Shown piece by piece: positions 43,930 to 64,000 of a stretch of DNA of 64,000 bases. Position 1 is the first letter of the stretch; each line of letters opens with the position of its first letter. The stretch is from Gammaproteobacteria bacterium (GTDB lineage: Bacteria; Pseudomonadota; Gammaproteobacteria; Eutrophobiales; Eutrophobiaceae), in contig WLWS01000003.1 in NCBI GenBank assembly GCA_012103475.1, forward strand, positions 525,565-589,564. Direction: 5' to 3'. Below the pieces are notes generated by a model. The model ran no database searches. It was not told the origin of the DNA and was given only the letters and a program-made list of their open reading frames with translations. Position numbers and translations under genes: made by a program.

Positions 43930-43960
43930 TTTACACCAGTAATGCAGTACCCACCTATGC

Positions 43961-44036
43961 GGGCCGTTAGCTCAGTTGGTAGAGCAGGGGACTCTTAATC
44001 CCAAGGTCGTAGGTTCGACCCCTACACGGCCCACCA
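43961..44036 (+). tRNA. tRNA-Lys(CTT)
   Basis: GGGCCGT...ACGGCCC acceptor, GGGACT-CTT-AATCCC, CCA encoded. Confidence 0.95.
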
Positions 44037-44049
44037 ATTAAATCAGGTA

Positions 44050-44162
44050 TGTACCGAGCACATGGTTGACGCTTTATAGCGGAGACATGGTTTACACTTT
44101 TAGTAAAAAAGGATGTAACGCCGCACTTGGTTTGCGATCTCGCCGCACTTGAATTGCGATCT
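44050..44162. repeat. Paired direct repeats at the host/prophage boundary (candidate mobile-element terminus)
   Basis: ACATGGTTGACGCTTTA / ACATGGTTTACACTTTTA (44060, 44085) and two abutting 22-mers CGCCGCACTTGGTTTGCGATCT (44119..44140) / CGCCGCACTTGAATTGCGATCT (44141..44162). Confidence 0.6.
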
Positions 44163-44205
44163 GTTTATTGACCGTAAAAACGGGAAAATATGCCTATCTG
44201 GAGAG

Positions 44206-45524: not shown

Positions 45525-45660
45525 ATTTCCATTATTATTTTTCTGTTAAGCTCACCTCGCCGCGTACGTGGCAGGGGAGCCTTGGGTGGCTCACTGCTAG
45601 TTCAGTGATTCGCTGGCCAGGTGTGTGTTACCGCACACGCCTGGTCGCTCCTCTTATCTT

Positions 45661-46206: not shown

Positions 46207-46218
46207 AGCAATCTCCTG

Positions 46219-46935: not shown

Positions 46936-46946
46936 GATTTATTTCC

Positions 46947-47492
46947 TCAAGTGTATGCGAAGTGCACGATGGTGTGAGCGGGCTTAATTCTAGATATCAC
47001 GCATTCAATGACATCGTTTCCCCAGGAGCGAAGCGGGTCACCTGCAGTTGAGCCACCGGATTCAAAACTTTTAATCGTGTCTAAGGGGCCATTTACTTGC
47101 CAGTGATGAGCGCTTGGCACATTCTCTGTGATGGTCACTACATGGCCAAGCCTGGCGGCGACGTCAATGAAGTACTGCGGACTGGCGCCACCCACTCTGG
47201 CCACCTTTTCATGTAATGCCAGGCGTCGCTCGACGGTAGTGACAGCGGCGTCGGTGCATTTATCTGGCAGGCCGAATGCGGTTTCCCAATCCGGCAATAA
47301 TTCTGATGCGGTGCGTGGGTCGATTTCTTCCAGCAGGTTGTCGACTCTGAAATCAACGCGTGCAAATTCTTCGGCAATGGCAAACAACAAGTTTGATAAA
47401 ACCGTATTCATCTCACGTGGCCAGGCTGGGCCCACTGGCAGCAGCGCCTGTAGTTGCTCGTGATAGTGGTCGACGGAATTAGTCATTTTCAA
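46947..47492 (-). CDS. Phage tail protein, Mu gp48/YmfQ-like
   Basis: YHEQLQALLPVGPAWPRE...DPRTASELLPDWETAFGLPD. Confidence 0.85.
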   Translation of the reverse strand: MKMTNSVDHYHEQLQALLPVGPAWPREMNTVLSNLLFAIAEEFARVDFRVDNLLEEIDPRTASELLPDWETAFGLPDKCTDAAVTTVERRLALHEKVARVGGASPQYFIDVAARLGHVVTITENVPSAHHWQVNGPLDTIKSFESGGSTAGDPLRSWGNDVIECVISRIKPAHTIVHFAYT

Positions 47493-47610
47493 TTCGAGAA
47501 TTAAATTCTTTCTTACAGCTCTCTATATAAGAAAACACAGAAAATCGAATAACCAAATCAATCAAGATAGCGCAAATGATGAGAACGACAGTGGCAATCG
47601 CTACGCCCAC
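47479..47610 (-). CDS. Small hydrophobic protein (about 43 aa, GTG start), below ORF-track cutoff
   Basis: VGVAIATVVLIICAILIDLVIRFSVFSYIESCKKEFNSRIEND; overlaps stop of upstream and start of downstream gene. Confidence 0.4.
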   Translation of the reverse strand: MGVAIATVVLIICAILIDLVIRFSVFSYIESCKKEFNSRIEND

Positions 47611-48656
47611 GTAATTACTCCCATCGTCGCCATATCGCCGGTGGCGTGAGCTACGTCAGCTGCTGGCACAGTAACGTCGTTGTCAGTCTCACCGGCTGCC
47701 AGGCTGACCGCTTCACGAATACGCGACAGTAGAATCGCTCCCCCTGGTTCTGCATCACGCAGCAACATGTCCTCGAGCTCTGCTTGAACGGCATCTTTTA
47801 TTGTCTGGTCGGATGGCGTGATATCTATCGAAAAGTTTAGTGGCACTGCGACAGGTGCGGCAACAGTTACCACAGCGGTGACCGGGCGCTGGAGCTGAAT
47901 ATGATCGTTTACCTCCGTCACCTTTGCGGCATCAGGGATGAGCGATGTTTCATGGTCATCAACAACAAAGCGAACTGCTACAGTGCCGTCACCGCCTTCC
48001 AATGGGTACACCCATGCTCGAGTGACGCCACTTATCTCTTTGGCCCAGGCAATGTAATCGAAGCTTGCGCCACCGTGTGGTGGCTCCTGGATCCGTTCCA
48101 GTAAGCGAGCTCGCAGCGCATCGTCCGTTTCCGTATCGATGCCGTTCGCAATACCACCGGCATCGACGGTCGCTTGGCTATTCACTCCGGAGATCGGACT
48201 GCTGAGTGACACGGAGCTGGCCGCCGCCGTGTTTGAATTTGTGCCGCCTTCGACAGCGGTAATTGCGACCGATGCCGTACCACTGGCGATGGTGCCTTCA
48301 GCATCGGTAGTGAACTCGACGCCATCACTGCGCTGCACTGTTGTGCTGATCGGTATCACTGATGCATCCGTTCCGGTAAACGTGATGCTGCCGGTTGCCT
48401 GGCCAGCGACCTTTCGAGACAGGCCCCAAATACTTGCTATGCGTTCAAGTGTTTCAGCTTCTGCGGTGTCAGGTAATATCTGCTTGGCTATCCAGTCCAG
48501 GTATCCATACAGAGAATGTGCGGCACCTGAATGTACTCGAGCTAATACATTTAGATTCGAGCGTAACAAACGTGCGTCGGTGCCAGGTAGGCGTGATTCA
48601 ATATCAGCGATGGCCCGGTCAATTAAATCTTGTAATGCTGGTCTAATGAATGGCAT
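47601..48656 (-). CDS. Phage baseplate J-like protein (Mu gp47)
   Basis: SRKVAGQATGSITFTG, ETDDALRARLLERIQEPPHGGASFDYIAWAKEISGVTRAWVYP. Confidence 0.9.
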   Translation of the reverse strand: MPFIRPALQDLIDRAIADIESRLPGTDARLLRSNLNVLARVHSGAAHSLYGYLDWIAKQILPDTAEAETLERIASIWGLSRKVAGQATGSITFTGTDASVIPISTTVQRSDGVEFTTDAEGTIASGTASVAITAVEGGTNSNTAAASSVSLSSPISGVNSQATVDAGGIANGIDTETDDALRARLLERIQEPPHGGASFDYIAWAKEISGVTRAWVYPLEGGDGTVAVRFVVDDHETSLIPDAAKVTEVNDHIQLQRPVTAVVTVAAPVAVPLNFSIDITPSDQTIKDAVQAELEDMLLRDAEPGGAILLSRIREAVSLAAGETDNDVTVPAADVAHATGDMATMGVITWA

Positions 48657-48660
48657 GTTT

Positions 48661-48879
48661 TTACCTTGCTAAAAGTTGGAGTTCTTTTTCTTCGACTGCT
48701 TGCACGGCATCCGCTGCAGCCTGGTAATAGGCTGCCCGGTCTCCGCCTCGGTTCATCTTTTTGCAGGCATCTCTCACGCGACGACGAATGGCAACCGGCA
48801 CCTTGTACCAGTGCGGTCTGCACATAAGAACATTGTCAGGATGCTTTGTTTTGCATTTGCTTATCCGACACGTTTTCAT
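48661..48879 (-). CDS. Small phage protein of unknown function
   Basis: CKTKHPDNVLMCRPHWYKVPVAIRRRVRDACKK; between baseplate genes, overlapping upstream stop. Confidence 0.6.
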   Translation of the reverse strand: MKTCRISKCKTKHPDNVLMCRPHWYKVPVAIRRRVRDACKKMNRGGDRAAYYQAAADAVQAVEEKELQLLAR

Positions 48880-49382
48880 AATTGATTCCAGAAATTGTCG
48901 AAACGAAACTGTGCAGTACTGCCATCCGGTCGGTGTATGTCCACACCGATGGCCAGCATTCCCTTGAATACCGTTGCTGTCTTGACCTCGACAATAACGC
49001 CGCTCGATTCAACCCAACCCGCAACCACGTCCACTCTCGATGCCACACCATCATCGAGCATCCACTGCAGCGCTTCCTCAGCGTACTCTCTGGCCAGATT
49101 CACCACGCTCTGCTCGTCTTTTTCCCTTTCAAGTAACCAAAGGCGCGAACCAATATTGTCACCGGCAATATCAGGATAGGCGTCGGCCCACCAACCGCGC
49201 TTGTCATCACTGCCGTTCGGCAGCACATCGTCATCGTTGGCGAGTCGGTTCGTGAATAAGGATAAAATCACCGCTGTGGCCAAGCCGTCATCTGCCTCCA
49301 GCTGGCTAGTCTTGAGCTGATAGTCGAAGTACGGTGGCGAAAGCGATTCACCGTCAAATATTAGTGTGCGGATATCGGTCAT
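48876..49382 (-). CDS. Phage GP46-like baseplate protein
   Basis: LATAVILSLFTNRLANDDDVLPNGSDDKRGWWADAYPDIAGDNIGSRLWLL. Confidence 0.88.
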   Translation of the reverse strand: MTDIRTLIFDGESLSPPYFDYQLKTSQLEADDGLATAVILSLFTNRLANDDDVLPNGSDDKRGWWADAYPDIAGDNIGSRLWLLEREKDEQSVVNLAREYAEEALQWMLDDGVASRVDVVAGWVESSGVIVEVKTATVFKGMLAIGVDIHRPDGSTAQFRFDNFWNQL

Positions 49383-49903
49383 GGATGCGAGTGATTGTTG
49401 GTATTGCCAGCACCATCGATAATGGTGCCATCGGCGTTGATGTTTGTGTCGACCTGCACGCTGCCGGTGATATCGACATCCCCCGTAAACTCGACAAGCG
49501 GAGAATCAATTCTCAATTTGGTCGAGGCACCAATGTGAATTTCATTGTTCCGTTTGAAGTGAATGTAATCACCTTCATCGCTGTACAGCGCCACCTCACC
49601 TTTTTCCATACCCTGCAAACGATAGCGTTTGTCTTCCGTGGCAATGATTAAACCGTGATGCCGGTTGCCGCCAACAAACACACCCGCCATTTCAGCACCG
49701 TCTAATGGCATTGAAGCGAATCCATAGTGTTGAAACAGTTCGAGCGAGTCTCTCACTTCACCTTTCATCAGTGAGGCTTGCACCAGAATCTTGCCATTTT
49801 CTTCAGCCAACAACTTAATCACTCCGCGCGAGACGGTGAGGAGTGCTCGGCGCCAGATTGGCGCCATTAGTTTCTTAATCTGTCGGTTAAACTCAAGATT
49901 CAT
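49379..49903 (-). CDS. Phage baseplate assembly protein V (Mu gp45-like)
   Basis: HYGFASMPLDGAEMAGVFVGGNRHHGLIIATEDKRYRLQGMEKGEVALYSDEGDYIHF. Confidence 0.88.
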   Translation of the reverse strand: MNLEFNRQIKKLMAPIWRRALLTVSRGVIKLLAEENGKILVQASLMKGEVRDSLELFQHYGFASMPLDGAEMAGVFVGGNRHHGLIIATEDKRYRLQGMEKGEVALYSDEGDYIHFKRNNEIHIGASTKLRIDSPLVEFTGDVDITGSVQVDTNINADGTIIDGAGNTNNHSHP

Positions 49904-50934
49904 AATATAAAACTGTCGTCGGCAGGCGGTAATTCCAGAACGTCAAACGCTCCGGCGCCGGTCAGCACCATTTGAGTTCGCTCGCCTTCAGAATCGAGAA
50001 TGTAATTGACGCCGACAATTAGCAGTTCAGTGTCAACGCCTATCGAAGGACTTTTCGTTTTCACTAGAGAATTCGGCTGCCAGATAACGCCATCAGCTTT
50101 CCATCCCTGAACGGTTAACGTAACACGAGTACTCCTGCCGTAGCGGACGTTGCGCTCCCAGGTTACGCGCTTCTTCATCGTCTCTGGTGTCGCATTGTCC
50201 TCTGCTAATAACACCAGCGGTCTGTACCGAATATCTGAGTCGGACACCTCAGCGCTTGGCTCCGCTGCATCAACCGGGTCAATAAAACCAGTGTCTGGTT
50301 GTTCACCTTTACCGATGTATATTGAATGTCGGTCTCGATGACTAAACTTACCGGCGGCGCCGAGCATGTTTTCGCCTTCGACGATGGCGGTGGCCATGCG
50401 CTTTTTGCCAGCGCGGGTGATGACTAAATCGCTAGCAGCATTTGAGGTCAGCATCACTCCTCGCTGCCTGGCAACCCGCTCTAGTAGCTCCATGACAGAT
50501 TCGCCATTACTGATGCTTTCGCTCTCAATCGGGCCACCGATATTGGTCTCGACTACAACATTAATCCCGAATGGCCTGCAGACATCTTGTGCAATCGTTT
50601 TAAGTGACTTCTTTTTCCACTGACCAGTTTTATGTATGGCGCTGCAATCAACTAAATCCGCGGTGCGACTGCGCCCGGTGAACTTCACTTGATGCTCGTT
50701 TCCATTGAGCGACGGCAGCACATCGTCAATGAAACCTGTGATGACGGTCTGGCCATCAATCGATACTGTTGCGGTTTGGCCTGGTCGTATTGGTCTAATC
50801 GTAGGTTGCTCAGACCATCGTTCTGTCACAATCAAATCGAAAGTGCCAGCGACCGATTCAATACTGCGATTCACGCTAATGGAGGTCCAGCCACCATAGT
50901 TCTGGCCATTGACTGTTAGGATTAGTTCGCTCAA
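49900..50934 (-). CDS. Phage baseplate hub protein (Mu gpP/gp44-like)
   Basis: SISVNRSIESVAGTFDLIVTERW, DVCRPFGINV, RVARQRGVMLTSNAASDLVITRAG. Confidence 0.85.
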   Translation of the reverse strand: MSELILTVNGQNYGGWTSISVNRSIESVAGTFDLIVTERWSEQPTIRPIRPGQTATVSIDGQTVITGFIDDVLPSLNGNEHQVKFTGRSRTADLVDCSAIHKTGQWKKKSLKTIAQDVCRPFGINVVVETNIGGPIESESISNGESVMELLERVARQRGVMLTSNAASDLVITRAGKKRMATAIVEGENMLGAAGKFSHRDRHSIYIGKGEQPDTGFIDPVDAAEPSAEVSDSDIRYRPLVLLAEDNATPETMKKRVTWERNVRYGRSTRVTLTVQGWKADGVIWQPNSLVKTKSPSIGVDTELLIVGVNYILDSEGERTQMVLTGAGAFDVLELPPADDSFIL

Positions 50935-51119
50935 TGCATCACCACGTAGTCGTTTGGATTAAAATCACCCGGGTGAATGATGTCGTCGTGGATGAATACA
51001 TAACCAGAATGTTTTCCTGTCTCAACTTCTTTGGCGTTGTTCGCGACAATCGTTCTCTGGCAATAAGGACAATAATGCGAACTCGTAGTCTCCGGTACCG
51101 TTATAGTTTTAGTCAGCAC
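50931..51119 (-). CDS. Small zinc-ribbon-like phage protein
   Basis: GTG start proposed: VLTKTITVPETTSSHYCPYCQRTIVANN...; CPYC plus His; abuts gpN stop and gpP start. Confidence 0.55.
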   Translation of the reverse strand: MLTKTITVPETTSSHYCPYCQRTIVANNAKEVETGKHSGYVFIHDDIIHPGDFNPNDYVVMH

Positions 51120-52305
51120 TGTTGAGCACCTCGAGTTCCGTTCCTCCCACCACAAAGCCGGGATGTCGTAAACTGTTTCTATCAACAATTGCTGCGTCTT
51201 GCGAAGCATCGTTGTAAAGCTTATGCGCTATCACCAATGCTGGTAGCGTGGCAGCCGGTTCATAACCGACAATACGAGCCAAGTCCGCGCCGCGCACTTT
51301 GATGTCGTCAATCATGGCAACTCTGACTGTCTGTAATGCGGAATACGAATTGTCGTCCGTAGTCAGCATTTGTCGCTCAAACTCTACGTCCAATTCGTCG
51401 CGCAACGTGCGTGCATCTCTAAATGAGTCGAATTCAATATCACTGGTCACTCGCGCTGCCTCTATCAGACCGGCTTGCTGAGTGATGTTGATAATTGCTG
51501 TTTGGTTCGCTGCTTGCTGTACACGTGTCGGCGTGCTTGATGGCACGGACGCGAAAGTGTTACCGAAAGTGAATAGTCCTCGATACACGTTCAATGCATC
51601 CAGCGGATCGTCAAACACGCCAGTCACACCTCGCAGCAGCTGAGTGATGTCGTTCGCTAGTGTTGCGGGCGCACGAATCAAGGAAGCTGAATTACTCGAT
51701 AGGGAGTTTGCTTGGCTGAGATATGAGGTGATGTTTGATGGTACCGACGGCGCATCGTTGATCAAGGACACGACTTTGGTTGATAAGTCAGAAAGTAAGC
51801 TATTCGCCGCAGTGCTAATAAACTCCGGTCTTTTTTCGACTGTAAAATTGCTAGTAAATACGCTTTCAATAGTCGTTAAACCACCATCCGCTGAACTCTT
51901 TACAATGGACGGTGTACTGGTTGAGGATGCTGGGGAACTATTCTGGCCAGACTCGACAAAGGTGACACTGAATGTCGCCATGCCGCCTTCACTGGTTGAC
52001 TCTGACACGCGATAGTCTTCGACCGACACTCGGATGCCACCATAGTATGGGTGCTGTAATGTGCCAGGGCCTTTGCCGTCCAGCGCTGATATCAGCGCAT
52101 CGCGAACCACCATGTAGTCCTTACCAATGACCAACAAATCCAGCGTAAAGCGCTTGGCTCGGCGACCGAGATCTTCGACGTATGGTTTGTCTCGCAGCGG
52201 GTACTCGTGCACAGCCAGTCGGCGTCCACCACCAAAGTCTGATCTGCGCGTCACAAACGAGGCATTTCGGAACTTTCCGGCTTGATATTTATCCTTCCAG
52301 GACAT
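51109..52305 (-). CDS. Phage DNA circularisation/tail protein (Mu gpN/gp43-like)
   Basis: MSWKDKYQAGKFRNASFVTRRSDFGGGRRLAVHEYPLRDKPYVEDLGRRAKRFTLDLLVIG. Confidence 0.88.
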   Translation of the reverse strand: MSWKDKYQAGKFRNASFVTRRSDFGGGRRLAVHEYPLRDKPYVEDLGRRAKRFTLDLLVIGKDYMVVRDALISALDGKGPGTLQHPYYGGIRVSVEDYRVSESTSEGGMATFSVTFVESGQNSSPASSTSTPSIVKSSADGGLTTIESVFTSNFTVEKRPEFISTAANSLLSDLSTKVVSLINDAPSVPSNITSYLSQANSLSSNSASLIRAPATLANDITQLLRGVTGVFDDPLDALNVYRGLFTFGNTFASVPSSTPTRVQQAANQTAIINITQQAGLIEAARVTSDIEFDSFRDARTLRDELDVEFERQMLTTDDNSYSALQTVRVAMIDDIKVRGADLARIVGYEPAATLPALVIAHKLYNDASQDAAIVDRNSLRHPGFVVGGTELEVLNSAD

Positions 52306-52342
52306 AGGCTTTTACATCTCACCAACGACAGGAGTCGACTTC

Positions 52343-52540
52343 ATGAAAAGAACTGATACCCTCAGAAAATATGCATTTATTGAAGGTGCAGTTGTTGCGG
52401 CACTAATTGGATATTTCATCATGCCAAATGCTGTTTGGTGGGTTCATATAATTGTGTGGCTATTTTTCTCAAGTGCGTTTTATCATGCATCTATTGAGCA
52501 TGAAGCGAAGGAAAAAATCGTAAATAGTAAAGACCATTAA
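52343..52540 (+). CDS. Small two-TM membrane protein, opposite strand to prophage late genes (moron candidate)
   Basis: MKRTDTLRKYAFIEGAVVAALIGYFIMPNAVWWVHIIVWLFFSSAFYHASIEHEAKEKIV. Confidence 0.6.
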   Translation: MKRTDTLRKYAFIEGAVVAALIGYFIMPNAVWWVHIIVWLFFSSAFYHASIEHEAKEKIVNSKDH

Positions 52541-54147
52541 AAGGCTGCCATCATTGGGCCAGAGTCGATATCTATGTCGACGTCCGGATTCACGGTAGAG
52601 ACACCAACCACCCTCGCTTTACCGTTATCGATTTCAAGTTTAATCGTTCCGCCCACCTCAGTTTGATTTGCACCGGCACCTTGTAACGTTGTCGCTCTGT
52701 TTGTCTGGTCACCGCTTCCAGTTTGATTTTGTGACAACGGAAGTGCTTCACGTATCTTTTTCAAGTTGGGTACCAAATTGACGGCCATGTCTTTGACGCC
52801 GTCCGGTATTAGGTCAATGACTTTGTCGAACAACTTCCCTGGCAAATCAAAGAGCAACTTCAAGGTGTTCATGAACCCTTCGATTAAATCCGTCATATGC
52901 CCAACCATGTCCTCCCAAAACTGCCTGACGGTGGACCAGTTTTTAATAATCAAAATTGCAGCAGCAGCTACTGCCATTGCGACAAAAATAATTGGGTTCG
53001 CCAACATTACGGCCCACATCAGTTTTAGCCCTGCGATTATTGCAGGCAGGGCAATCGTCGCCATGCTTTTCAACGCCATTGCTGTGCCCCAAAGTGACAC
53101 AATCAATTTGGCGCTCAGTATAAAAGCAACAGCAGCCACAATTGATCCATAACCTCCCGTTAAATCAGCGACAAACTTTATGGCCTTTGCAATTCCACTT
53201 AGCATTGAGAAAAGTACTTTCCCAATTTCCCAACTTGCCATGAATGCATCCTGCAAATTGCGGCCAAACTTCTCAGCGATGACATCCAGCTGACCGTTCT
53301 TGGTAAGCACGTCGACCTGCTGAAGCAGGTTTCGAAGCTTTCCTTTCATCCAGTCAAACAAACCAGATCCCATTACTTTCTGTGCGAACTGCGTCCACTG
53401 ATCGGACGCGTTACTAGTCATGCCATCCCAGGTGCTCGACATCTTGTCCATATTGCCCGCGTACTTTTCATTCCAGATAGCCAGAAGCGTTGATTCAATC
53501 ATCTTGCGGCTATTCTTATCAGCAACCTTCACTCGCTCCTCGCCATCTTTACCAGTGAAAACGAAGGCGACGCGATTGCCTTGCACACGCGCTTTAATGC
53601 CCAACTCTTTCAGACGTTCAAACTCGCCGGTACCAGCATCGGCGATGGCTTCAACTGCTTGAATGATTGGTACGTTCATTGCTGCAGCCGTGTCGCCCAG
53701 AGTCCGTAGCATTCCGTTTGTTGGATCAAGTCCAAATGCACGTAACCGAACAAATGCATTAGTAACGGTTTCCAACTCAAATGGCGTGGTCGCCGCAAAA
53801 TCCTCAATCCAGCTCATCGACGCCTGCGCTTTCTCGGATGAACCTTCCGTTGTCTCCAGTATTGTTTGAAAACGTTCAAACATTGCGGCTGTATCAAGGA
53901 ACTGCCGCTTAAAGCCAAAGCCGAGAATGCCGCCCCCTACTAAAGTCAAGCCGGTGAGCTTTTTTAGTTCCTTCGATGTCCCGGACAAATTCTTTGTCAA
54001 CCTGGATGTCGCTGCATTCAAACCGCGAACACGGTTTAATCGACGAATAGTTTTACTCACACGATTGATATCGTTCGTGACTTTACGCAGTGGCGCAGTC
54101 GAACGATTCACAACATCAAATATAAGACTAAGATTCAGATTACTCAT
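52537..54147 (-). CDS. Phage tail tape measure protein
   Basis: FDVVNRSTAPLRKVTNDINRVSKTIRRLN; FQTILETTEGSSEKAQASMSWIEDFAATTPFELETVTNAFVRL; hydrophobic centre. Confidence 0.88.
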   Translation of the reverse strand: MSNLNLSLIFDVVNRSTAPLRKVTNDINRVSKTIRRLNRVRGLNAATSRLTKNLSGTSKELKKLTGLTLVGGGILGFGFKRQFLDTAAMFERFQTILETTEGSSEKAQASMSWIEDFAATTPFELETVTNAFVRLRAFGLDPTNGMLRTLGDTAAAMNVPIIQAVEAIADAGTGEFERLKELGIKARVQGNRVAFVFTGKDGEERVKVADKNSRKMIESTLLAIWNEKYAGNMDKMSSTWDGMTSNASDQWTQFAQKVMGSGLFDWMKGKLRNLLQQVDVLTKNGQLDVIAEKFGRNLQDAFMASWEIGKVLFSMLSGIAKAIKFVADLTGGYGSIVAAVAFILSAKLIVSLWGTAMALKSMATIALPAIIAGLKLMWAVMLANPIIFVAMAVAAAAILIIKNWSTVRQFWEDMVGHMTDLIEGFMNTLKLLFDLPGKLFDKVIDLIPDGVKDMAVNLVPNLKKIREALPLSQNQTGSGDQTNRATTLQGAGANQTEVGGTIKLEIDNGKARVVGVSTVNPDVDIDIDSGPMMAAF

Positions 54148-54540
54148 TAAACCGTTTCACCTGTTCGTGCCAGAAATACAATTCATCAATACCCATTTCC
54201 CACAGCTCGGATGGTGGAAAATGAAAGGTCGCTGCGATATCGCCTAAGAGGTCACTCCAGTTGTTCGGAAAAGCTCTTGTGCGAGAGGTAACTTTCCCAT
54301 GACGCCTATCACATCCTCCATATCCATTTTGTCCATTTGTGCTGGAGTCAGCTCTGAGAAAGCGCCAATCAAATCAATCATGGCGCTCATTTCACCTTCA
54401 CTGATACGCATGGCCCGCATGTGGCGGGCCGTTATCTTCTCCGGGATCTCAACCTCCGATATTTTCTTAGTCGTCGGTTCATCACCTTCACTTGGGATGG
54501 TGATATCGAATGGGTGCTTGAGTGGGTATTTTTCCATCAA
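54140..54540 (-). CDS. Tail assembly chaperone E+E' fusion product made by predicted -1 frameshift at GGGAAAG
   Basis: E frame ...MGKLPLAQELFRTTGVTS*; -1 frame continues VTSRTRAFPNNWSDLLGDIAATFHFPPSELWEMGIDELYFWHEQVKRFNE* (P2 GpE-like), no stop from slip site to 54140. Confidence 0.8.
54244..54540 (-). CDS. Tail assembly chaperone E (Mu gp41-like), zero-frame product
   Basis: HPFDITIPSEGDEPTTKKISEVEIPEKITARHMRAM...FSELTPAQMDKMDMEDVIGVMGKL. Confidence 0.85.
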   Translation of the reverse strand: MMEKYPLKHPFDITIPSEGDEPTTKKISEVEIPEKITARHMRAMRISEGEMSAMIDLIGAFSELTPAQMDKMDMEDVIGVMGKLPLAQELFRTTGVTS

Positions 54541-54896
54541 GCTTCCTCACAGCTCAGACCATGAAAGGTCACCGGCAAATCACCATTTTCATTGGCGGTC
54601 AATTCCAGCGCATTCGACAACCAGGCATTCGACAAGATAAACGTCGCGCCACTATCAGCCTCGAAAGTGATGTTGGTGTCAGTGACTTTACTCAAGGCAT
54701 CCAGACTCACGTCCTTTGCATGTTGAATGGTGGCTTCAATCATAGGAGCGGTCGGCTTTTCCGAAAAACCTCTCACGCCCTGATCCCCCACAACGGGGGC
54801 GCGCTCATTGTTGCCATAATTCAGCTTGGCACCATTGGCGGTGGGAAGGATTTTACCTTCCAGTTTGATGAAGGCTCTGCCGGTTATAGCGCCCAT
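54537..54896 (-). CDS. Phage tail tube protein (Mu gpM-like)
   Basis: GAITGRAFIKLEGKILPTANGAKLNYG...ADSGATFILSNAWLSNALELTANENGDLPVTFHG. Confidence 0.85.
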   Translation of the reverse strand: MGAITGRAFIKLEGKILPTANGAKLNYGNNERAPVVGDQGVRGFSEKPTAPMIEATIQHAKDVSLDALSKVTDTNITFEADSGATFILSNAWLSNALELTANENGDLPVTFHGLSCEEA

Positions 54897-54936
54897 AATG
54901 TCTCTCCTATTTAAACGATTTTTAAGTAGTCTTTAT

Positions 54937-56415
54937 TCAGACAATAAATTGGTTTTTGTTGGCCAGTATGCGGAACTGATTCACCAGATTCGGCTGGTCA
55001 GCGACATTAACGCGGTTGCGATCATCCGAATCAATTTGAACCACTAGCGTGGTCTTGTAATGCTCAATGTCTTCCACCCAGCCGAGGTTCATTTGAGATC
55101 GATATATGCTCAGCAGCTCAGCACGTATTATCGAAGGCGTGGCAATGGCGGCACCGACAGGAATGTTGGCAAACTCACCGTCCTCTCGTAACTTGTGGCG
55201 TGGATACTTGGTGCTAATCAGCGCGATTTTCGCAAAACGAATTCGCTCAAGCGTCTCCGGTGTATTGATGTCCAGATAAGAGGCATCAGGAACAGATGAA
55301 TCGTTCTCCTGGTACATAGTGATCTGTCTTTCAATTAGCACCCGGTTGTCACTGGTCACTGTAAACGTCGCAATGCCGTCATAGAGCAATTGATTGCGTT
55401 CGTTAATATCATTCCGATCAGCAATCGCCGGTGGCAGGATGCTAGGCAGCTGCAGACGCTGCAGTGGTCTTGCCGGATCAGTAATCAGATTGAATGAACC
55501 AATCGCGGCATTCGCTGCCGCCCAGATGTAAGGCAGCTGAGGAGCGATGCCGGTACCAATACAGGTCACGTGTGGACTGTTCCGCGTTTCACCAAAGGTG
55601 CCGGTGGCAGAGTGAGTGCCTCGATAGGCGCAGAAAGCACGGCTGCCTTTTTGCACTGGTGGCTGGAATCGCGTGCCCAGGTCGGTTTCCAATGCCGTCA
55701 AATTCGCCGCATCTGTGTAGGGCATCACGATCTAGTTGTACCACTCATCACCAATTGCTGCGATGGCGGTAGCAACGTCAGGATTCGTGGCACCGTTGGA
55801 CATGGCCACGAAGGTGACCGTCAATCCGGCAGGCAGTACTTCGCCGGTGTAGTAGTTCACTCGGAGGTCGATATCGTTGCCGTGCGTGCCATCGTTTCTC
55901 GCGGTCAAATCGACTTGCGTGTCGTCCACACCATTTACCGCGGCTGTCACTGGTAAATCCGTCGCCGCGGTAATCGCCGCGGCGACGTTGGTTGCTGTGA
56001 CACTGTTAGCTTCACCACTGGCCACGGCCACCTGTACACGCTGTCCGCCGATATACAGATTCAGTGTGCCGGTAGCCGTCACGGCGCCGCCGAAAGTAAT
56101 ATCACCCGTAGCCGCCACACCGGCACCGGCATCGTCCAAGGAAATAAGCCAGGTCTCGGTAAAAGGATTCGCCGCTTTGAATGCCTTTATCATTTCAGCC
56201 AGCATCGAACCACGTCCGCACATGGCTTCGCCTTCTTCGCTACTGGTGACTCTGGTTGGCACCGCTTCTGCAACACTGCCGGTTGCCAGGCGCTGGCCTA
56301 TCAGTAAGACTTTGGATTCAAAGGCACTGGCGTTGGCCAGTTCATTATTTATCTCAACGTAGACGCCAGGGACGCGCAGCGTGGATGGGATGTGGTCAAA
56401 AGCAATCGCGTTCAT
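54937..56415 (-). pseudogene. Phage tail sheath protein (Mu gpL-like) interrupted by in-frame TAG at 55732..55734
   Basis: Both halves are the same frame: ...AIAAIGDEWYN-TAG-IVMPYTDAANLTALETDLGTRF...; 493 codons including stop. Confidence 0.85.
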
Positions 56416-56603
56416 GATTTATTACCCTCTTTCTTGGCTTTCTTTGGTGGCTTGGCAATCTCAACGTCGCCGTCTTTCAAACGTCGCCGCCAGAATGTGT
56501 TTAAAATTTTCTCTTCGCCTTCCGGCGCCAGACGCCGTAGCGTTTGTGGATCACGTGGACAAACAGTGTCGTTCGTCGGTTTTAAAAAGGTGGTTTTATC
56601 CAT
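56412..56603 (-). CDS. DUF2635-like phage protein (Mu gp38)
   Basis: FLKPTNDTVCPRDPQTLRRLAPEGEE...TFWRRRLKDGDVEI. Confidence 0.85.
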   Translation of the reverse strand: MDKTTFLKPTNDTVCPRDPQTLRRLAPEGEEKILNTFWRRRLKDGDVEIAKPPKKAKKEGNKS

Positions 56604-56615
56604 GTTTACTCTCTC

Positions 56616-57194
56616 TTAAAAGTGAAGGTCTTCGATGTCAGTTTCGATATCAATCTGACCATCAGCCGTGGTCATGTCGGTCTCGGCGTTGAACTGCTTA
56701 AAGTCTTTCAAGGTATCCGGATCGATGGTGGACACCAGCTGCATGTTCGGCATAAAGAACGTGGCCGCATAAATCGTGGCATTCAAATCGAAAGTGAGTT
56801 CGTTGAATAGATTTCCTATCCTGTCGAATTTCAATGTGCCGATATCGTCAACTGTAAAAGCGTCAAGCACGCTCACGGCATTCTCTAATAACTCATAGGC
56901 GCCGATTTGTGATTCGTTGCCGTGACGCCTGTCCATTTCTTTTGCATGGTCGGTGACCGTGAAGAGATCAAAACGACCTTTCATTCGGGTCTGATCAGTA
57001 TTGCCTTTATCAGCACTGATGAAGGCGAGGTACAAGCCAGGGGCGCGCTGCAAAAGTCGCTCAAGGATCTGTCTGGAGAAAGTGCCCGGTATCGACAGAC
57101 ACTCTCTGATAACCAGCTGGCCGTCTTTGGACATGAAGTTATCCTTCAGCTTTTCGATACAGGCGTCTTCAACTTTTAGAATCACTGACATCAA
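56616..57194 (-). CDS. Mu gp37-like phage protein
   Basis: RAPGLYLAFISADKG...RFDLFTVTDHAKEMDRRHGNESQIGAYELLENAVSVL; position between gp36 and gp38. Confidence 0.8.
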   Translation of the reverse strand: MMSVILKVEDACIEKLKDNFMSKDGQLVIRECLSIPGTFSRQILERLLQRAPGLYLAFISADKGNTDQTRMKGRFDLFTVTDHAKEMDRRHGNESQIGAYELLENAVSVLDAFTVDDIGTLKFDRIGNLFNELTFDLNATIYAATFFMPNMQLVSTIDPDTLKDFKQFNAETDMTTADGQIDIETDIEDLHF

Positions 57195-57610
57195 ATGAAC
57201 CCTGTGTCCTTTCGGTCGAAGACATTGCTGCCACCTTCAAACTCGACAGTATCTTTCGATGCGGCCTTATCACCGCTCGTGTCAATGCCTATGTCAATTT
57301 TGCCTTGTGCAATCAGTTTTAAATCTCTGATGGCATCGTCATACTCCTGACGAATATTCTCAGGTCGATGCTTGTCGTAGAGCGAGTACCGTGCCAGCTG
57401 ACAAGCGATACGTACCAGGTTCTTCGACACTGGCGATATCGGCAGGCTATAACGCGCACCAACATGACCGTCAATGATGCCTTCGGCATCTTGTATGGCA
57501 CGGTTCAGCGTCGTCGTGACTATTTCGCCGATATTCTCTTTGTCGGTGAGCGTAATGATTTCGTCTTCACCGAATCGGTCAATTAAATCTTGTTCAATGC
57601 AGTAAGGCAT
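57191..57610 (-). CDS. DUF1320/Mu gp36-like phage protein
   Basis: YCIEQDLIDRFGEDEIITLTD...AEGIIDGHVGARYSLPISPVSKNLVRIACQLARYSLYD. Confidence 0.88.
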   Translation of the reverse strand: MPYCIEQDLIDRFGEDEIITLTDKENIGEIVTTTLNRAIQDAEGIIDGHVGARYSLPISPVSKNLVRIACQLARYSLYDKHRPENIRQEYDDAIRDLKLIAQGKIDIGIDTSGDKAASKDTVEFEGGSNVFDRKDTGFI

Positions 57611-57895
57611 TAATGTCCGCCGTCTGATGAAATGTATATGCGAATTTGCTCGTGCAGTGTTTCTGGCATTGACGTCACGATCTCGACCTCCGGTTCGTAC
57701 TTCTCGCCCTCTGTGCCACCAGACACCTTGATGCCTGTAACAAGTCCACTGACCGACTCATCATCTTTGGTGATGCCAGCAGGCACAGTCCATGTCGCCG
57801 TTGTAATGTCAGCACACTGCAGCTCTTTAGCGCTCCATTTGACGTAGTACCACTTAGCACTGCCTGGATGTTTTGCTGGTGCATTTCGAATCACG
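57610..57895 (-). CDS. Small phage structural protein (start approximate)
   Basis: ...WYYVKWSAKELQCADITTATWTVPAGITKDDESVSGLVTGIKVSGGTEGEKYEPEVEIVTS; ORF-track start overlaps upstream gene. Confidence 0.6.
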
Positions 57896-58400
57896 CTGCC
57901 GTTGCACCCTTCACACGAATTAAGCTCGCATCGGCATTGACTGCTGAGGCCGCTGCGCTGATAACGCGCTTCACCCATATAGCCTTATGTTCACCGGCAG
58001 GAATGTCGCCGATGGCCAGCGAACTGCCTTCGCCGTTTGCCTGGCTAAAGACGACACCAGCCGGGGCAGTCGATTCATCGGCTATCGTTTGCTCGATGCC
58101 GTTCACCGCGCTGGTACCAAGTCCAATTTCTTCATCGGTATCAACGCTCGGCGTTTCGGTTTGAACCCATACTTCTGCCCCTTGAAGAGTCAGCGAGCCA
58201 TGATTGTTCTTGACATAAAAACAGCGATACTCGGTGTCACCGGCATCGGCTTCATCGCCATCGACTACATCGAAAAGATTGCTGACCGTGGCGGCGACAA
58301 TTTCAACCGAACTTATCGCGCCACCGAGAGCAGCATCTGGAACGGCGTTCGCGGCACCACCTGATAAATGAAAGTCAATGTCTCCAGCTACTATTGGCAT
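57891..58400 (-). CDS. Phage virion-associated protein of unknown function
   Basis: DIDFHLSGGAANAVPDAALGGAISSVEI; position between capsid and tail genes. Confidence 0.65.
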   Translation of the reverse strand: MPIVAGDIDFHLSGGAANAVPDAALGGAISSVEIVAATVSNLFDVVDGDEADAGDTEYRCFYVKNNHGSLTLQGAEVWVQTETPSVDTDEEIGLGTSAVNGIEQTIADESTAPAGVVFSQANGEGSSLAIGDIPAGEHKAIWVKRVISAAASAVNADASLIRVKGATAA

Positions 58401-58408
58401 ACTTGCTC

Positions 58409-59992
58409 CTAGTGTGTGTTATGCACGCGTTGTTCAACCGGCGCATTCATGCGTCGGTTTTCAGGGTTTGAGAAAGTGCGGACCTCTGCAGGCACGATCA
58501 GAATAGTTATCGGTGCCAACTGTTGGCCATCGACTGACCACTGAAGCGTTAAGCTATTCTCAGTCATGCTGAGAGTGTCCCAACGTAAATCCGCATCGGC
58601 ACTAACATTGGTCAGCACATCCCATTGTGTATTGAGTTCACCGAGCACGGCGTTGGCTATGTCGTTGCGTATATCCAGATCGGAAGTGATGTGCTGCAGA
58701 ATGTTCCATCGCATGTCGAGACTCGAGACGATTGCCTGATGAATATCCCAACGAAGGTCTAAGTCAGCTTGCGCATTATTTAAGACATTCCAACCAAGCT
58801 GCATGTCCTGGCTAACGGTCAGGCCGATGTTCCACTGCGCTTCCAAATCAGCGGTGACCGCATTAAAGACGTCCCAGGACAGCGTCGTGTCCTGCACAGC
58901 GTGCATAATCAAGTCCCAGGCTATTTGCACATCCTGCTCAACCGCATTAAGAATGTCATGCCGCAAATCCACGTCACTGATGGCGTTATTTAGAATCGCG
59001 TGTCGTATATCTAAATCACTGATGACATCGGTCAAGCCAACCGAGACGTATTCATCAGAACCAATGTCCCAACTGCTTCGAGTCTCACCATCAAAGTCGA
59101 CGGAGAAGGGAAAATCGGAAACAGCACTTAAGTCGGTGCCGTTGCCTTTCCATAAAGTGTCACTCGCATCCAAGTGAAAGTCATCACTTGCTTCATCTAC
59201 GAATGTGGGGTTACCGGTCTGCGCGTTGCTACCAGGAGCATCGCTTGATATGTCCGAAGCGTTATAATCGGACGCGGAATTGAATGTGCCACTGAAACCG
59301 TTTGCACTGGCGAGGCCCTGTGATTCATAGCCATTATTGACTACGTGAATATTTGAGCTATTCGTATAAAACCCGGTTAAACAATTAATAGCAGTATTGT
59401 TATACCAATACATCACCGCACTACTGCCTGTATTTCGGTATCCAACCATCCCTGTGTAAATGAAGTCATAAACAAAACAATTCCGAATTGTCCCTCTGGT
59501 ATCAGAATCGACGTTTTCTATACCCATCGACCCGTTACCGTTGCCGGAATTAATACCAGATTTTATAACTAAGCCATCTAGAACAATGTTTGAGCCTGAT
59601 GATTGTGACGCTATTTGAACGCCGTCTCTGGGGCTTGTCCCCGAAGTCTTAATTGGCTGTACTTGTATTTTCTCAACAGTGACATTCTGATCTTGTATTC
59701 TCAAGCACCTATCACCAGAACTGCACTCTAGACGATAAGTCGATGACGAATACGGTATCTGCGCTTCGGCTCCTGCTGCTGGCCGAATTACCAGGTTCCG
59801 AATTGCGTCAGTTACCATCCCATTAATAGCGACGGCTGAGGTATCGGAAAATGCTTCGCAGGTGCAAATAACATTCTCATCGTTGGAGACAAGATCGGCA
59901 CCAGCCGCACCAAAGTTATCCGCCTCGGCGGCACTAAGACTGGCATAGTCCCCGCCTGATGACGCAACGATTATGTTGACCGCTGTAGGCAT
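58409..59992 (-). CDS. Phage protein: right-handed beta-helix-like domain plus C-terminal 14-residue tandem repeats
   Basis: N-term NIIVASSGGDYASLSAAEAD...NIVLDGLVIKSG...GTIRNCFVYDF; C-term repeats xxDLDLRWDILNxx. Confidence 0.75.
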   Translation of the reverse strand: MPTAVNIIVASSGGDYASLSAAEADNFGAAGADLVSNDENVICTCEAFSDTSAVAINGMVTDAIRNLVIRPAAGAEAQIPYSSSTYRLECSSGDRCLRIQDQNVTVEKIQVQPIKTSGTSPRDGVQIASQSSGSNIVLDGLVIKSGINSGNGNGSMGIENVDSDTRGTIRNCFVYDFIYTGMVGYRNTGSSAVMYWYNNTAINCLTGFYTNSSNIHVVNNGYESQGLASANGFSGTFNSASDYNASDISSDAPGSNAQTGNPTFVDEASDDFHLDASDTLWKGNGTDLSAVSDFPFSVDFDGETRSSWDIGSDEYVSVGLTDVISDLDIRHAILNNAISDVDLRHDILNAVEQDVQIAWDLIMHAVQDTTLSWDVFNAVTADLEAQWNIGLTVSQDMQLGWNVLNNAQADLDLRWDIHQAIVSSLDMRWNILQHITSDLDIRNDIANAVLGELNTQWDVLTNVSADADLRWDTLSMTENSLTLQWSVDGQQLAPITILIVPAEVRTFSNPENRRMNAPVEQRVHNTH

Positions 59993-60300
59993 TAAACAAC
60001 CGCTCCAGTAATACCGGTCTTCGCCTTGATGGCGTCATAAAGAGCAAGCTTAATGCTTTGATAAACTGAGTTCCCTTGTGCGGCATAACTCTCAGCCGCA
60101 GTGATAGCATCGATGGTTTCTTGCCCCGCTAATCTGATCATGTTATTCGGGTTGACAGGAACAAATACTCCAGCGTCCATATACCCCTCATCGTAGGAGA
60201 TATGTATCTCGTTTAATTCATGATCAATAGCGTGAGAATTAATCTCAAGCGTGTTTACCGTGATGGTTTTTTCAAGTGAGGCATCAAGTGTTAATGGCAT
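59992..60300 (-). CDS. Phage protein of unknown function
   Basis: 102-aa ORF in co-directional, overlapping prophage operon. Confidence 0.6.
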   Translation of the reverse strand: MPLTLDASLEKTITVNTLEINSHAIDHELNEIHISYDEGYMDAGVFVPVNPNNMIRLAGQETIDAITAAESYAAQGNSVYQSIKLALYDAIKAKTGITGAVV

Positions 60301-60670
60301 GCCTTGCTCCGTGTGGTTTGCGGATTACATTGTCAAAATCATCCAGATAATAGGAGCGCCTTGAATATATTTCTCTGTTATGCCGGGACATGGTGCTCGC
60401 TAATCGCCTGATGCCAATCAAGGCCAATGGGAATACCTCGCTATTTGATTTCATCTCCATCTGAGTAAGGTGCTGCATATCCTCAACAGGTACGCCAGGG
60501 TATTTAACAATTCGAAATCGGTCGCTGAGTTCGTTCTTTCCATACTCACAGCCGTCCGGCCTAACTTCAACAACATCGCCTTTCTTGTAACTTCCAGACA
60601 AATCCTTGTCTGGATCGGGATTGACGTTGTCAACGTTTCTGATTAGTAATTCACACATGTTTGATGTCAT
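60284..60670 (-). CDS. Phage protein of unknown function
   Basis: CELLIRNVDNVNPDPDKDLSGSYKKGDVVEVRPDGCEYG; operon context. Confidence 0.6.
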   Translation of the reverse strand: MTSNMCELLIRNVDNVNPDPDKDLSGSYKKGDVVEVRPDGCEYGKNELSDRFRIVKYPGVPVEDMQHLTQMEMKSNSEVFPLALIGIRRLASTMSRHNREIYSRRSYYLDDFDNVIRKPHGARHAINT

Positions 60671-60685
60671 TCTGCCACGCTGAGA

Positions 60686-60943
60686 TCAGTCCTTTTTCGT
60701 GGCAGCCTTCTTCGATGCTTTTTTCTTTGCTGTCTTTTTCGCTGGCGCTTCAGGGTTCAAGCCTTTTTCATACTGCTCGCGCTCTTCCTCGCTCGGCGAG
60801 GTAAAATGAAGCTTGGTCTCCTGACTGAGGCGTTCGAGTTGCTCTTTATCAAACTGATCCATATCGACGACTTCCGACTCCGACCAGGCATGACCGCACC
60901 GACGATACCCGGGCTGACTGCAGGTGACTTTTGCAAGATTCAT
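60686..60943 (-). CDS. Phage protein with Lys/Ala-rich C-terminal tail (FluMu-type)
   Basis: VTCSQPGYRRCGHAWSESEVVDMDQFDKEQLERLSQE...PAKKTAKKKASKKAATKKD. Confidence 0.6.
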   Translation of the reverse strand: MNLAKVTCSQPGYRRCGHAWSESEVVDMDQFDKEQLERLSQETKLHFTSPSEEEREQYEKGLNPEAPAKKTAKKKASKKAATKKD

Positions 60944-60965
60944 AATTCACTCCTTCTGTTGTGAT

Positions 60966-61042
60966 TGGTAGCCGTGGCTAGATTTGAACTAGCGACCTCC
61001 GGGTTATGAGCCCGGCGAGCTGCCAGACTGCTCCACACGGCG
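60966..61042 (-). tRNA. Initiator-type tRNA-fMet(CAT) encoded inside prophage
   Basis: CGCCGTGTGGAGCAGTCTGGCAGCTCGCCGGGCTCATAACCCGGAGGTCGCTAGTTCAAATCTAGCCACGGCTACCA; C1xU72 mismatch, A11:U24, GGG/CCC anticodon stem. Confidence 0.92.
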
Positions 61043-61064
61043 ATAAATTGTTTCTCAATGCAAA

Positions 61065-61088
61065 GGGCGGGACAAAAATGCCCCGCCC
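61065..61088 (-). terminator. Strong hairpin between capsid gene and prophage tRNA (terminator or processing element)
   Basis: GGGCGGG-loop-CCCGCCC; weak T-tract (TTTGCATT) on minus strand. Confidence 0.45.
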
Positions 61089-61123
61089 TCGCAGGGCCTA
61101 CACGCTACGGGTAATATTCGTTA

Positions 61124-62167
61124 CTAGCTGAGCCACTCCGTGACTAACAAGTCGACCGCATCACGGTTGACGTTGGTCGCGCCGTCTGCCTTACGCTCGG
61201 CCTTGATGACCTCCAGCGCTTCAGCACGATTGCTCGGCCCACACACCATAAGGTTCGGCTTAATGCCCAGGGGTTTGCCCGAACGCTTCTTCTGTCCCAT
61301 CATGGCCGCCAGAGCTGCTTCAAAGTTCGCCGCATCGAGCGTGTCTTTGCTGCCATAAGCCATCTGATGAAAACCGAAGCCCACGTTCATTCGACCGTCG
61401 ACGCCGTAGCGCAATTCTTTTTTGTCGAATACGTTGTCGTCATCAACACGGTCTTTGGCGACAAAATCAAACATGCGTCGCTGCTGGTAGATGAGCGGCT
61501 TCAGCGGTCGGCGAGTGTCCATGAGAAACCAGGGTGCACCTGCACCGGCGCCGTCATTGGAGTAACTGATTTCCGCACCGTTTTCATCGTAGCCAAGATG
61601 ATCGGTGTCGAAAAAGAATTGACCGTCATAGCCCGCTAATGCAAAGCCAGCAACCAGCTGCTCAAACACTAGCTGATCAGGAAAGCGAGCGGTCTCAAAT
61701 CCCATGTTGGAAAACAGCGGAGAGTAGACACCATACTGATCGTCCTCAACCGCATCGCGGTCGACGCCGATGGTTACCCACACGCCGTCAGAGTCGACCT
61801 GTTTAATCACACCCGCTACAGAGCGGGTGGCGCTGCCATCGGTGGCGGCCACCGTTTCGTCATCGACGATAAACGCGTTGTTTCCAACGTCGGCTTTATC
61901 TATCGCGTCCGCACCATGATTTTTGAATTTGAAAGTGCCTTTCAACACATTCACGCTGATATCAGCGGCAGAGCCTGCTGAATTGTCCGCCTGTGTCTCA
62001 CAGCGGCCAGCGGCCTTTAATGTGGTGGCTACCGAACCGGGTACCGCATCACCTGCGGCATTCAAGGCAACCAGCGCACCGGCATAGATAATGCTGGCAG
62101 CGGCGACGGGATAGCTGAAAAGATTGCCCTGACGTTCAGGAGTGTCTTTGTCTTTTGAGAGTGCCAT
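61124..62167 (-). CDS. Chimeric phage head protein: decoration (DUF2190-like) N-terminus fused to major capsid (Mu gpT-like) C-terminus
   Basis: NLFSYPVAAASIIYAGALVALNAAGDAVPGS...VDSDGVWVTI | GVDRDAVEDDQYGVYSPLFSNMGFE...FFFDTDHLGYD...YGVDGRMNVGFG...KAERKADGATNVNRDAVDLLVTEWLS. Confidence 0.8.
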   Translation of the reverse strand: MALSKDKDTPERQGNLFSYPVAAASIIYAGALVALNAAGDAVPGSVATTLKAAGRCETQADNSAGSAADISVNVLKGTFKFKNHGADAIDKADVGNNAFIVDDETVAATDGSATRSVAGVIKQVDSDGVWVTIGVDRDAVEDDQYGVYSPLFSNMGFETARFPDQLVFEQLVAGFALAGYDGQFFFDTDHLGYDENGAEISYSNDGAGAGAPWFLMDTRRPLKPLIYQQRRMFDFVAKDRVDDDNVFDKKELRYGVDGRMNVGFGFHQMAYGSKDTLDAANFEAALAAMMGQKKRSGKPLGIKPNLMVCGPSNRAEALEVIKAERKADGATNVNRDAVDLLVTEWLS

Positions 62168-62214
62168 AATCGAATTCCTGTGTTATGAGTTTTATATAAA
62201 TCGTTGCTACGCGA

Positions 62215-63300
62215 TTAAGACGACTCGGCTTCGGCCTGCCGGGTCTTTTTAAAGTCTTCCTGGCTGATGCCGAGATTCTTGCAGATAGCAATATCGGATT
62301 CCGATAAGGCCGCTTCCGGATCGAACTTGGCATTGCTGAGTGAAGTTTGCTTCTGCAACAAGGCCGGAATTGGTGTCGCGGAACCCACGTATTTTTTCAG
62401 GGCAGCGATATCACTCTTCGCTAAATCCTCCGCCCAGCCTTTCTGCGCAGCAGTCAAGCGACCATCGGCGAGCGCTGAATCGATGAGCACGGTTGCTTCG
62501 TTGTTGTTCATGATGCTTTTCAACGTAGCCAGCTCAGTCTTCATTTCTTCAACCACTGAAACAGAAACGAACTTGGCTGGATCAGGTATCTCTGCGGTAT
62601 CAATAGATGCCTTCAATGCTGCGATAGCGGTTTGCGCTTCTTCTTCAGTCGCTTCGACTTTCAGGCCAACGCCTTCCAGGAGGACGACATTCAATCCAGT
62701 GATGGCTTTCAATGCCGCAATGGCATCGTCAGCAGTAGCGTCTTCGTTCAGTCCAAGCAGCTTTAAAAGTTCTTTGTTCATGGAGTCATCCTCTGTTGAG
62801 TCGTCATGTTGAAATCGTTTTGCGGCCATCAAAGTCACTTCTTCCATCCCATCGATAGCGGGGAAGTTAGTTAGTCCAGCGTGATAGATATCGGTTGGTC
62901 GGCCTTCCTCGTCATAAGGAAATACCAGTGATATGTATTTGTACTGCTTTTTTGCAATCATGGTGCTCGCGTCTTCCGTCCAGTCGACAGTAGTTGCGAA
63001 CAGCCCTTCGCCATCAATGTACTCCATGTCATGCCACCAGCCAGCAGCAGGTGCCGGTTTGCCATTTTCAGCCGACAATAATGTCTGATGCTCGTAATCA
63101 ATCACCAGGTCATTATCTCGAGCGCTCACCTTGTCGATGACACGCTTGGCGATGGCTGCATTCATTTGGAAGTGCGGGGCATTTTTGGGCTGACCGTCCG
63201 TGCCACGAAACTCACCATGCGGCAAAAGCTGGGTAGGTTCGCCCTGGTTGACGTTGAGCTCGAAGGAGCAGACTGCAAGATTTGAACTTTGGCCTTTCAT
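62215..63300 (-). CDS. Phage I-like protease/scaffold (Mu gpI-like)
   Basis: QLLPHGEFRGTDGQPKNAPHFQMN, DLVIDYEHQTLLSAENGKPAPAAGWW, YKYISLVFPYDEEGRPTDIYHAGLTNFPAIDGM; start chosen at MKGQSS. Confidence 0.85.
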   Translation of the reverse strand: MKGQSSNLAVCSFELNVNQGEPTQLLPHGEFRGTDGQPKNAPHFQMNAAIAKRVIDKVSARDNDLVIDYEHQTLLSAENGKPAPAAGWWHDMEYIDGEGLFATTVDWTEDASTMIAKKQYKYISLVFPYDEEGRPTDIYHAGLTNFPAIDGMEEVTLMAAKRFQHDDSTEDDSMNKELLKLLGLNEDATADDAIAALKAITGLNVVLLEGVGLKVEATEEEAQTAIAALKASIDTAEIPDPAKFVSVSVVEEMKTELATLKSIMNNNEATVLIDSALADGRLTAAQKGWAEDLAKSDIAALKKYVGSATPIPALLQKQTSLSNAKFDPEAALSESDIAICKNLGISQEDFKKTRQAEAESS

Positions 63301-63582
63301 CGAGGCGCATTGTCGGAGAGGTGGCAGCTGGTACGGAACCTGAAATATTTCAGGGTGGGAATATCTGCAGTGGGTTTTACACCATAGCAGACGGATCAGC
63401 GGGCCGACAATAGGGCTTTTTGGCAGAATCGCGAATTCTGGCCTGATCACAAGGCGGTATGGGGCCAGATTGCCGTTTAAATTCGCCAGAAATCGTTTAA
63501 ATTTTTTTCAGCGGTACGGTAGGGGCTTGGATCGGACACAGGGCAACTGGTGCCCGAATTGGGGTAGATCGATATTTGGGGC

Positions 63583-63968
63583 TTATGGCGCGATATTCAG
63601 GTGATCGCCGAGGATGGCCAGAATTTCCAATTCGTCGGCTTTTGAGATCCCCAGGAAGGGTCGCTCGGGTATGTTTCGGTCATCATCACCAAACTGATGC
63701 GTGGCAGCCTTGATGTCGTCAGTGCCAAATTCCAGAGATTGATTGCCTGCCTGATAGCGCAGGCCGCCTCGGAGAAATCCGTCCAGTACCAGGACAAGAT
63801 CGGCGTTCCGTTTTTTCCGCTTCTGATAACCTGGGAGAGTGGGGCCCACGCGTTACCTTCTGGATCCACTTGATCGCTGAAGCGCTGATCATGTGACTCC
63901 AACAAGTACTCGCCGATCTCCTTCATGGCCGGTGACATGTCTCGGCCCAGGCGCTCGAGCTTCTCCAT
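63583..63968 (-). pseudogene. Phage virion morphogenesis protein (Mu gpG-like), frameshifted
   Basis: MEKLERLGRDMSPAMKEIGEYLLESHDQRFSDQVDPEGNAWAPLS in one frame, PGYQKRKKRNADLVLVLDGFLRGGLRYQAG...HQFGDDDRNIPERPFLGIS...ILAILGDHL in another. Confidence 0.8.
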
Positions 63969-64000
63969 TGCAGCGACAATTTCTCTGTCCTGGAATTTTA

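Follow-up and report, generated by a model that had tools for sequence, protein, structure and literature searches.

An initiator-type tRNA gene in the late operon of a Mu-like prophage and recurrent Met(CAU) tRNA or tRNA-like elements between the capsid and gp36 genes of related loci

Described phage tRNAs and the Mu-like late operon

Phage-borne tRNAs are common and their roles are disputed; initiator tRNAs are seldom discussed among them. The family of Mu-like phages integrates by transposition. Met(CAU) tRNAs, some of the initiator type, are also carried by phage D3, the cluster C mycobacteriophages, the Caulobacter giant phages, and the Sinorhizobium phiLM21-like prophages. Unlike the tRNA described here, the non-Mu phage tRNAs that we examined lie outside the interval between the capsid and gp36 genes (that of phiLM21 adjoins an HNH gene), and no link of these Met tRNAs to the late operons of transposable phages was found. 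An unannotated Met(CAU) tRNA was also seen between terminase and portal-labelled genes at L402:4001-4077 (Erythrobacter phage vB_EliS_R6L) and at PV416405.1:8406-8482, and is another late-gene-boundary tRNA, in an unrelated phage. A further point of comparison is RNase P, which cuts polycistronic mRNAs (PMC4919922) and for which an acceptor plus T stem-loop is a sufficient substrate, with RCCA pairing to the RNase P RNA (PMC11143913).

Mu-like late operons of the gpI/gpT/gp36 type have the same gene order and Pfam families as the prophage studied here. However, the isolated Mu-like relatives examined (RC1, vB_ThpS-P1, and B23) have no tRNA at this place, and the open-access literature yielded no isolated phage and no published report with a tRNA in a Mu-like late operon. 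The prophage is transposable, has a contractile tail, and is about 39 kb long, reaching from about 44.1 kb of the window (the whole stretch of 64,000 nucleotides analyzed) to about 19 kb past the window end, with both ends approximate. Its genes in the window are those for the I protease, gpT, gp36, gp37, tail sheath, tube, tape measure, and baseplate. The next 20 kb hold portal, terminase, MuB-like, and MuA-like genes plus a repressor-like gene, named by reading translations and not by profile search. The features are listed below in window coordinates.

44206-64000, minus strand: window part of the Mu-like prophage (tail, baseplate, and head genes), which continues about 19 kb through the MuB-/MuA-like genes to the repressor-like gene
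57191-57610, minus strand: Mu gp36-like gene, downstream edge of the conserved slot (PF07030, E 1.7e-38)
60686-60943, minus strand: FluMu_N-like small late gene, downstream of the tRNA (PF17891, E 2.7e-5, 24.2 bits, just below the 25.8 cut-off)
60966-61042, minus strand: initiator-type tRNA-Met(CAU), 77 nt, CCA encoded, C1xU72 (ARAGORN, Rfam RF00005, feature read-out, covariance model)
61064-61089, minus strand: 11-bp G+C-rich hairpin with UUUU loop, between the capsid stop and the tRNA (MFE fold)
61124-62167, minus strand: major head subunit gpT (capsid), immediately upstream of the tRNA (PF10124, E 8.6e-82)
62215-63450, minus strand: Mu-like I protein, head protease/scaffold (PF10123, E 1.2e-104)

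A preliminary description, made from the sequence alone, had placed a 77-nt minus-strand tRNA between the capsid gene and the next late gene, co-directional with the late operon. ARAGORN, Rfam, and the flanking Pfam matches agree with this placement, and gpT, the tRNA, and the FluMu_N-like ORF are all on the minus strand. The gpT stop is followed by 81 nt and then the tRNA; the CCA of the tRNA is followed by 22 nt and then the ATG of the FluMu_N-like gene, whose Shine-Dalgarno-like AGAAGGAG (60950-60957) starts 8 nt past the CCA. The stretch from the tRNA to gp36 holds four ORFs with no Mu core-gene match. The 50 nt just before the tRNA folded at -26.8 kcal/mol (z = -6.0 compared to mononucleotide shuffles), and a terminator-like match (61097-61080) overlaps the 11-bp hairpin, which could possibly act as a 3'-end block or a weak terminator. 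A search confined to sigma-70-like promoters found none in 60400-61600.

Two other observations were made in the window. The tail sheath gene (phrog_165, 54937-56415, minus strand) is split by one in-frame TAG into an N-terminal half (55735-56415) and a C-terminal half (54940-55728); this could mean a defective prophage copy, a sequencing error, or a stop that is read through. The right end of the prophage (43326-44206) adjoins a host tRNA-Pro/His/Lys cluster, and no more than about 170 bases separate the tRNA-Lys from the first prophage genes.

Initiator features and comparison with the host gene

ARAGORN called tRNA-Met(cat) exactly at 60966-61042 on the minus strand, and the Rfam tRNA model matched the same interval at 60.5 bits (E 1.3e-10). 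Failure to score as a tRNA, which had been named beforehand as grounds for rejection, was thus not observed. Our own covariance model gave 90.3 bits, with the window sequence being part of its training set. Direct read-out showed a canonical cloverleaf with a CAU anticodon in the loop CUCAUAA and an encoded ACCA. The three initiator hallmarks claimed in the preliminary description were all read directly: position 1:72 is unpaired (C1xU72), the D stem has A11:U24, and the anticodon stem has GGG(29-31)/CCC(39-41). In published counts, 626 of the 4438 initiators have C-U at 1:72 and 4430 have A:U at 11:24, two states that no elongator Met tRNA shows; GGG,CCC is found in 3849 initiators versus 2 elongator Met (PMC5143459). 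The window tRNA has the initiator-type state at every position in those tables that discriminates initiators from elongators. The preliminary description had also presented C1xU72 as a departure from the usual C1xA72. The mismatch is real, but it is not unusual; C1xU72 is the second commonest initiator class in the same statistics, and the host initiator tRNA itself has U1xU72. A close resemblance to E. coli tRNA-fMet had been noted as well, and amounts to 63 of 77 identical positions.

The window tRNA shares CAU, an unpaired 1:72, A11:U24, GGG/CCC, A73, and encoded CCA with bacterial initiator tRNAs of the metY/metZ type. In contrast to these, it is phage-borne in a late operon, has C4:G69 and not G4:C69, and departs from the host gene by 5 pair swaps. 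Three of the four minor formylation determinants (A73, G2:C71, C3:G70, and G4:C69; PMC9976931) are present, the exception being 4:69.

The host has one other fMet-like gene, which is intact and on another contig (the assembly is 87% complete), and its U1xU72 tRNA is conserved exactly in most family members examined. The phage and host genes are identical at 66 of 77 positions. Ten of the 11 differences are five helical pairs swapped on both sides (4:69, 6:67, 27:43, 51:63, and 52:62); the eleventh is the unpaired position 1. When 11 random substitutions were simulated, all stems were kept in 324 of 200,000 trials (0.16%), a comparison that assumes direct descent from the fMet gene of this host; the source may have been another bacterium with U72. 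On the evidence of sequence, the compensatory swaps and intact folds indicate selection on the fold.

Two candidate explanations for the gene itself were rejected. A pseudogene or chance fold was ruled out by the Rfam score together with the compensatory swaps and intact stems. Identity to a host tRNA-fMet at a phage/host recombination junction, named in advance as the finding that would speak against a phage gene, was likewise ruled out by the 66/77 identity to the single host gene and by the position of the tRNA well inside the prophage. In relatives from the host family, near-copies were seen adjoining the genuine initiator tRNA gene (L163, L170, and L171); their 5' half is that of fMet, and other sequence takes the place of the anticodon and 3' parts, e.g. 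...GGGCTCCCCGGCATCGATAAGGTCCGAAGG....

Recurrence in related Mu-like loci

Capsid relatives from bacterial genomes and viral contigs gave 266 distinct Mu-like loci, which were scanned with ARAGORN, the covariance model, and a pattern for T arm, acceptor, and CCA. In 22 of the 266 loci, the pattern was found in the sense orientation within the capsid-to-gp36 slot, and in 2 on the antisense strand of the slot, compared to 1, 0, and 0 for three control regions. Adding L300 and L479, which were seen only by the covariance model or ARAGORN, brings the slot elements to about 24 loci. A search for the same tRNA in related Mu-like phages, as the preliminary description had proposed, thus returned a Met(CAU) tRNA or tRNA-like element in about 24 of 266 loci; the carriage of about 9% is rough and probably inflated, the sample having been drawn partly by queries from tRNA-carrying phages. 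ARAGORN reported 17 cloverleaf tRNAs in the sense slot (16 distinct), all CAU, and no other CAU tRNA in 2.69 Mb.

Most slot tRNAs have an initiator-typical 1:72 (CxA, GxA, AxA, CxU, or U:A) and an acceptor of NGCGGGG/CCCCGCAACCA or near to it. Most of those in relatives have C11:G24 and often a UGG/CCA coding stem, and so do not have the full initiator features; their function may be different from that of the window tRNA. A11:U24 was found only in the window and, less cleanly, in L485. Seven sense-slot elements (L020, L154, L224, L230, L294, L298, and L300) are tRNA-like, keeping the acceptor, T arm, and CCA with an anticodon region that is enlarged, rebuilt, or missing; L300 was seen by the covariance model only, and its T arm is non-canonical. 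These forms can be read either as decay from a tRNA or as conversion into a processing signal. Among cultured strains, the tRNA form is represented by L033 (Pseudotabrizicola algicola ETT8) and the tRNA-like form by L020 (Bradyrhizobium sp. BR 10289). When 21 slot elements were aligned, both partners varied in 16 of the 20 pairs; the covariation score was 0.528 versus 0.141 for shuffled and at most 0.112 for slid alignments, with the alignment fitted to the cloverleaf model and therefore leaning towards structure. This recurrence of both position and fold in relatives favors function over accident.

On a capsid tree of 266 rows, the 23 positives need at least 19 changes, 13 of them forced by supported branches, so gain or loss is frequent. 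No clean excision scar that would separate gain from loss was found in sister phages lacking the element. In the class of the host, capsid relatives were found in 11 of 369 genomes, and their short loci had no tRNA. A canonical initiator pattern was found in 63 of 2.9 million viral contigs, but in none of these did the tRNA lie at a convincing match to capsid or gp36, and so the window is to date the only place where this slot holds the fully canonical form. An upstream hairpin as a general feature of the slot was not found beyond the window, L156/L190, and L242.

Other tRNAs and folds were encountered during these scans. The best phage-database match, 'Pseudomonas phage Y6' (85.7%), was rejected because the match adjoins secG-like, tRNA-Leu, and rimP/nusA/infB-like genes and looks like bacterial chromosome. 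That record (OQ572408.1, L157) also holds an fMet tRNA in a chromosome-like stretch and is a probable contamination or misassembly. Apart from Met tRNAs, the one intact tRNA seen in the interval downstream of the capsid gene was a tRNA-Lys(CTT), antisense in L029 (1581-1656, minus strand), a Mu-like contig. Some alphaproteobacterial Mu-like loci have another recurrent tRNA-like fold, with no clear anticodon, which lies antisense and on the upstream side of the capsid gene (L015:6289-6365, L052:7466-7542, and L145:1574-1652, minus strand).

Possible roles of the late-operon tRNA

No promoter-like site was found nearby, so the late mRNA would be the sole source of the tRNA; together with the sense-strand position, this makes co-transcription and excision the natural reading. 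Host RNase P would cut the 5' end, and host 3' nucleases would cut after or near the CCA. The released tRNA would be charged with methionine, probably formylated, and added to a host initiator pool fed by a single gene; since the host has one other fMet-like gene, dosage could matter. Excision would also cut the late message between the capsid and the downstream genes, such that the capsid mRNA would end in the 11-bp hairpin and the next mRNA would start just before the Shine-Dalgarno site. The window element has the acceptor/T-arm/CCA fold, the sense strand, and the location between coding regions in common with RNase P-punctuated polycistrons and RNase P-cut tRNA-like structures; it differs from the latter in being a full tRNA, and cutting is predicted here. 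We hold, with about even confidence, that this is a functional, selectively maintained initiator-type tRNA that is excised from the late mRNA, both adding initiator tRNA and splitting the transcript. Several observations count against this reading: the G4:C69 formylation determinant is flipped to C4:G69, the in-frame TAG in the tail sheath gene means that the prophage copy may be defective, the element is dispensable given that only about 9% of related loci carry it, and the C11:G24 and UGG/CCA stem of most relatives' tRNAs may mean a different function.

A rival reading is a purely cis-acting role, in which decoding is irrelevant and the only use of the fold is to be an RNase P substrate that separates the capsid from the downstream mRNA and sets their relative stability. 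The 7 elements that retain the T arm and CCA in the same slot and strand with the anticodon domain lost or rebuilt fit such a role, as do the sufficiency of an acceptor plus T stem-loop with RCCA pairing, the known cutting of polycistronic mRNAs by RNase P, and the strong hairpin preceding the tRNA in the window. However, cutting alone does not account for the CAU anticodon of all 16 intact slot tRNAs, nor for the initiator-type 1:72 ends that most of them have; a directly preceding hairpin is not a general feature of the loci, and the tRNA-like forms might be tRNAs in decay. The retained CAU identity speaks for initiator supply and the stripped forms for cutting, and we favor the two together, at the even level given above, over cutting alone, which we consider somewhat unlikely. 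A host tRNA captured as passive cargo in a tolerant, variable late-operon interval, with little or no function, would fit the patchy carriage (23 positives and at least 19 changes on the tree) and a slot that also takes extra genes, such as the four ORFs in the window. Compensatory swaps and intact folds indicate selection, however, and restriction to CAU, one position, and one strand is unexpected under random capture; passive carriage is therefore quite unlikely.

Two further explanations are counter-defense and a link to integration or lysogeny. Enteric VapC cleaves initiator tRNA, and phage tRNAs have been proposed to be resistant through anticodon-loop mutations (PMC10264068), such that the phage tRNA could replace host initiator tRNA destroyed by VapC-type anticodon nucleases. 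Evasion by such mutations was unsupported; the anticodon loop is the same as that of the host, CUCAUAA, and the host assembly (87% complete) has no PIN-domain protein (PF01850). A counter-defense role is thus very improbable, with replenishment in the absence of nuclease resistance being a possible form of it. The preliminary description had correctly read an initiator-type tRNA co-directional with a Mu-like late operon. Of the three roles that it suggested, initiator supply and RNA punctuation are both kept as candidates, but a past integration target was not supported. Integration into tRNA genes is widespread among temperate phages, and tRNA-dependent lysogeny has been described (PMC10865867), so the gene could in principle be a remnant of an integration site or be needed for lysogeny. 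This phage, however, has MuA- and MuB-like genes and belongs to a transposing family, the tRNA is enclosed by head and tail genes, and an intact host initiator gene lies on another contig. Tyrosine-integrase lysogeny with attB over a host tRNA of the same isotype was rejected on the same grounds, and either version is barely credible.

We propose only tentatively, with rather less than even confidence, that these phages form a recurrent Mu-like class whose capsid-to-gp36 boundary holds an initiator-type tRNA, or a stripped tRNA-like structure derived from it, serving as an RNase P cut site and setting head-to-tail expression, some members having turned the tRNA into a processing signal that no longer decodes. 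A recurrent Met tRNA or tRNA-shaped remnant at one spot suggests that the element helps to make or cut late viral messages. The recurrence of Met(CAU) tRNAs at one position and strand, alongside non-decoding look-alikes, provides a natural series for separating decoding from RNA processing.
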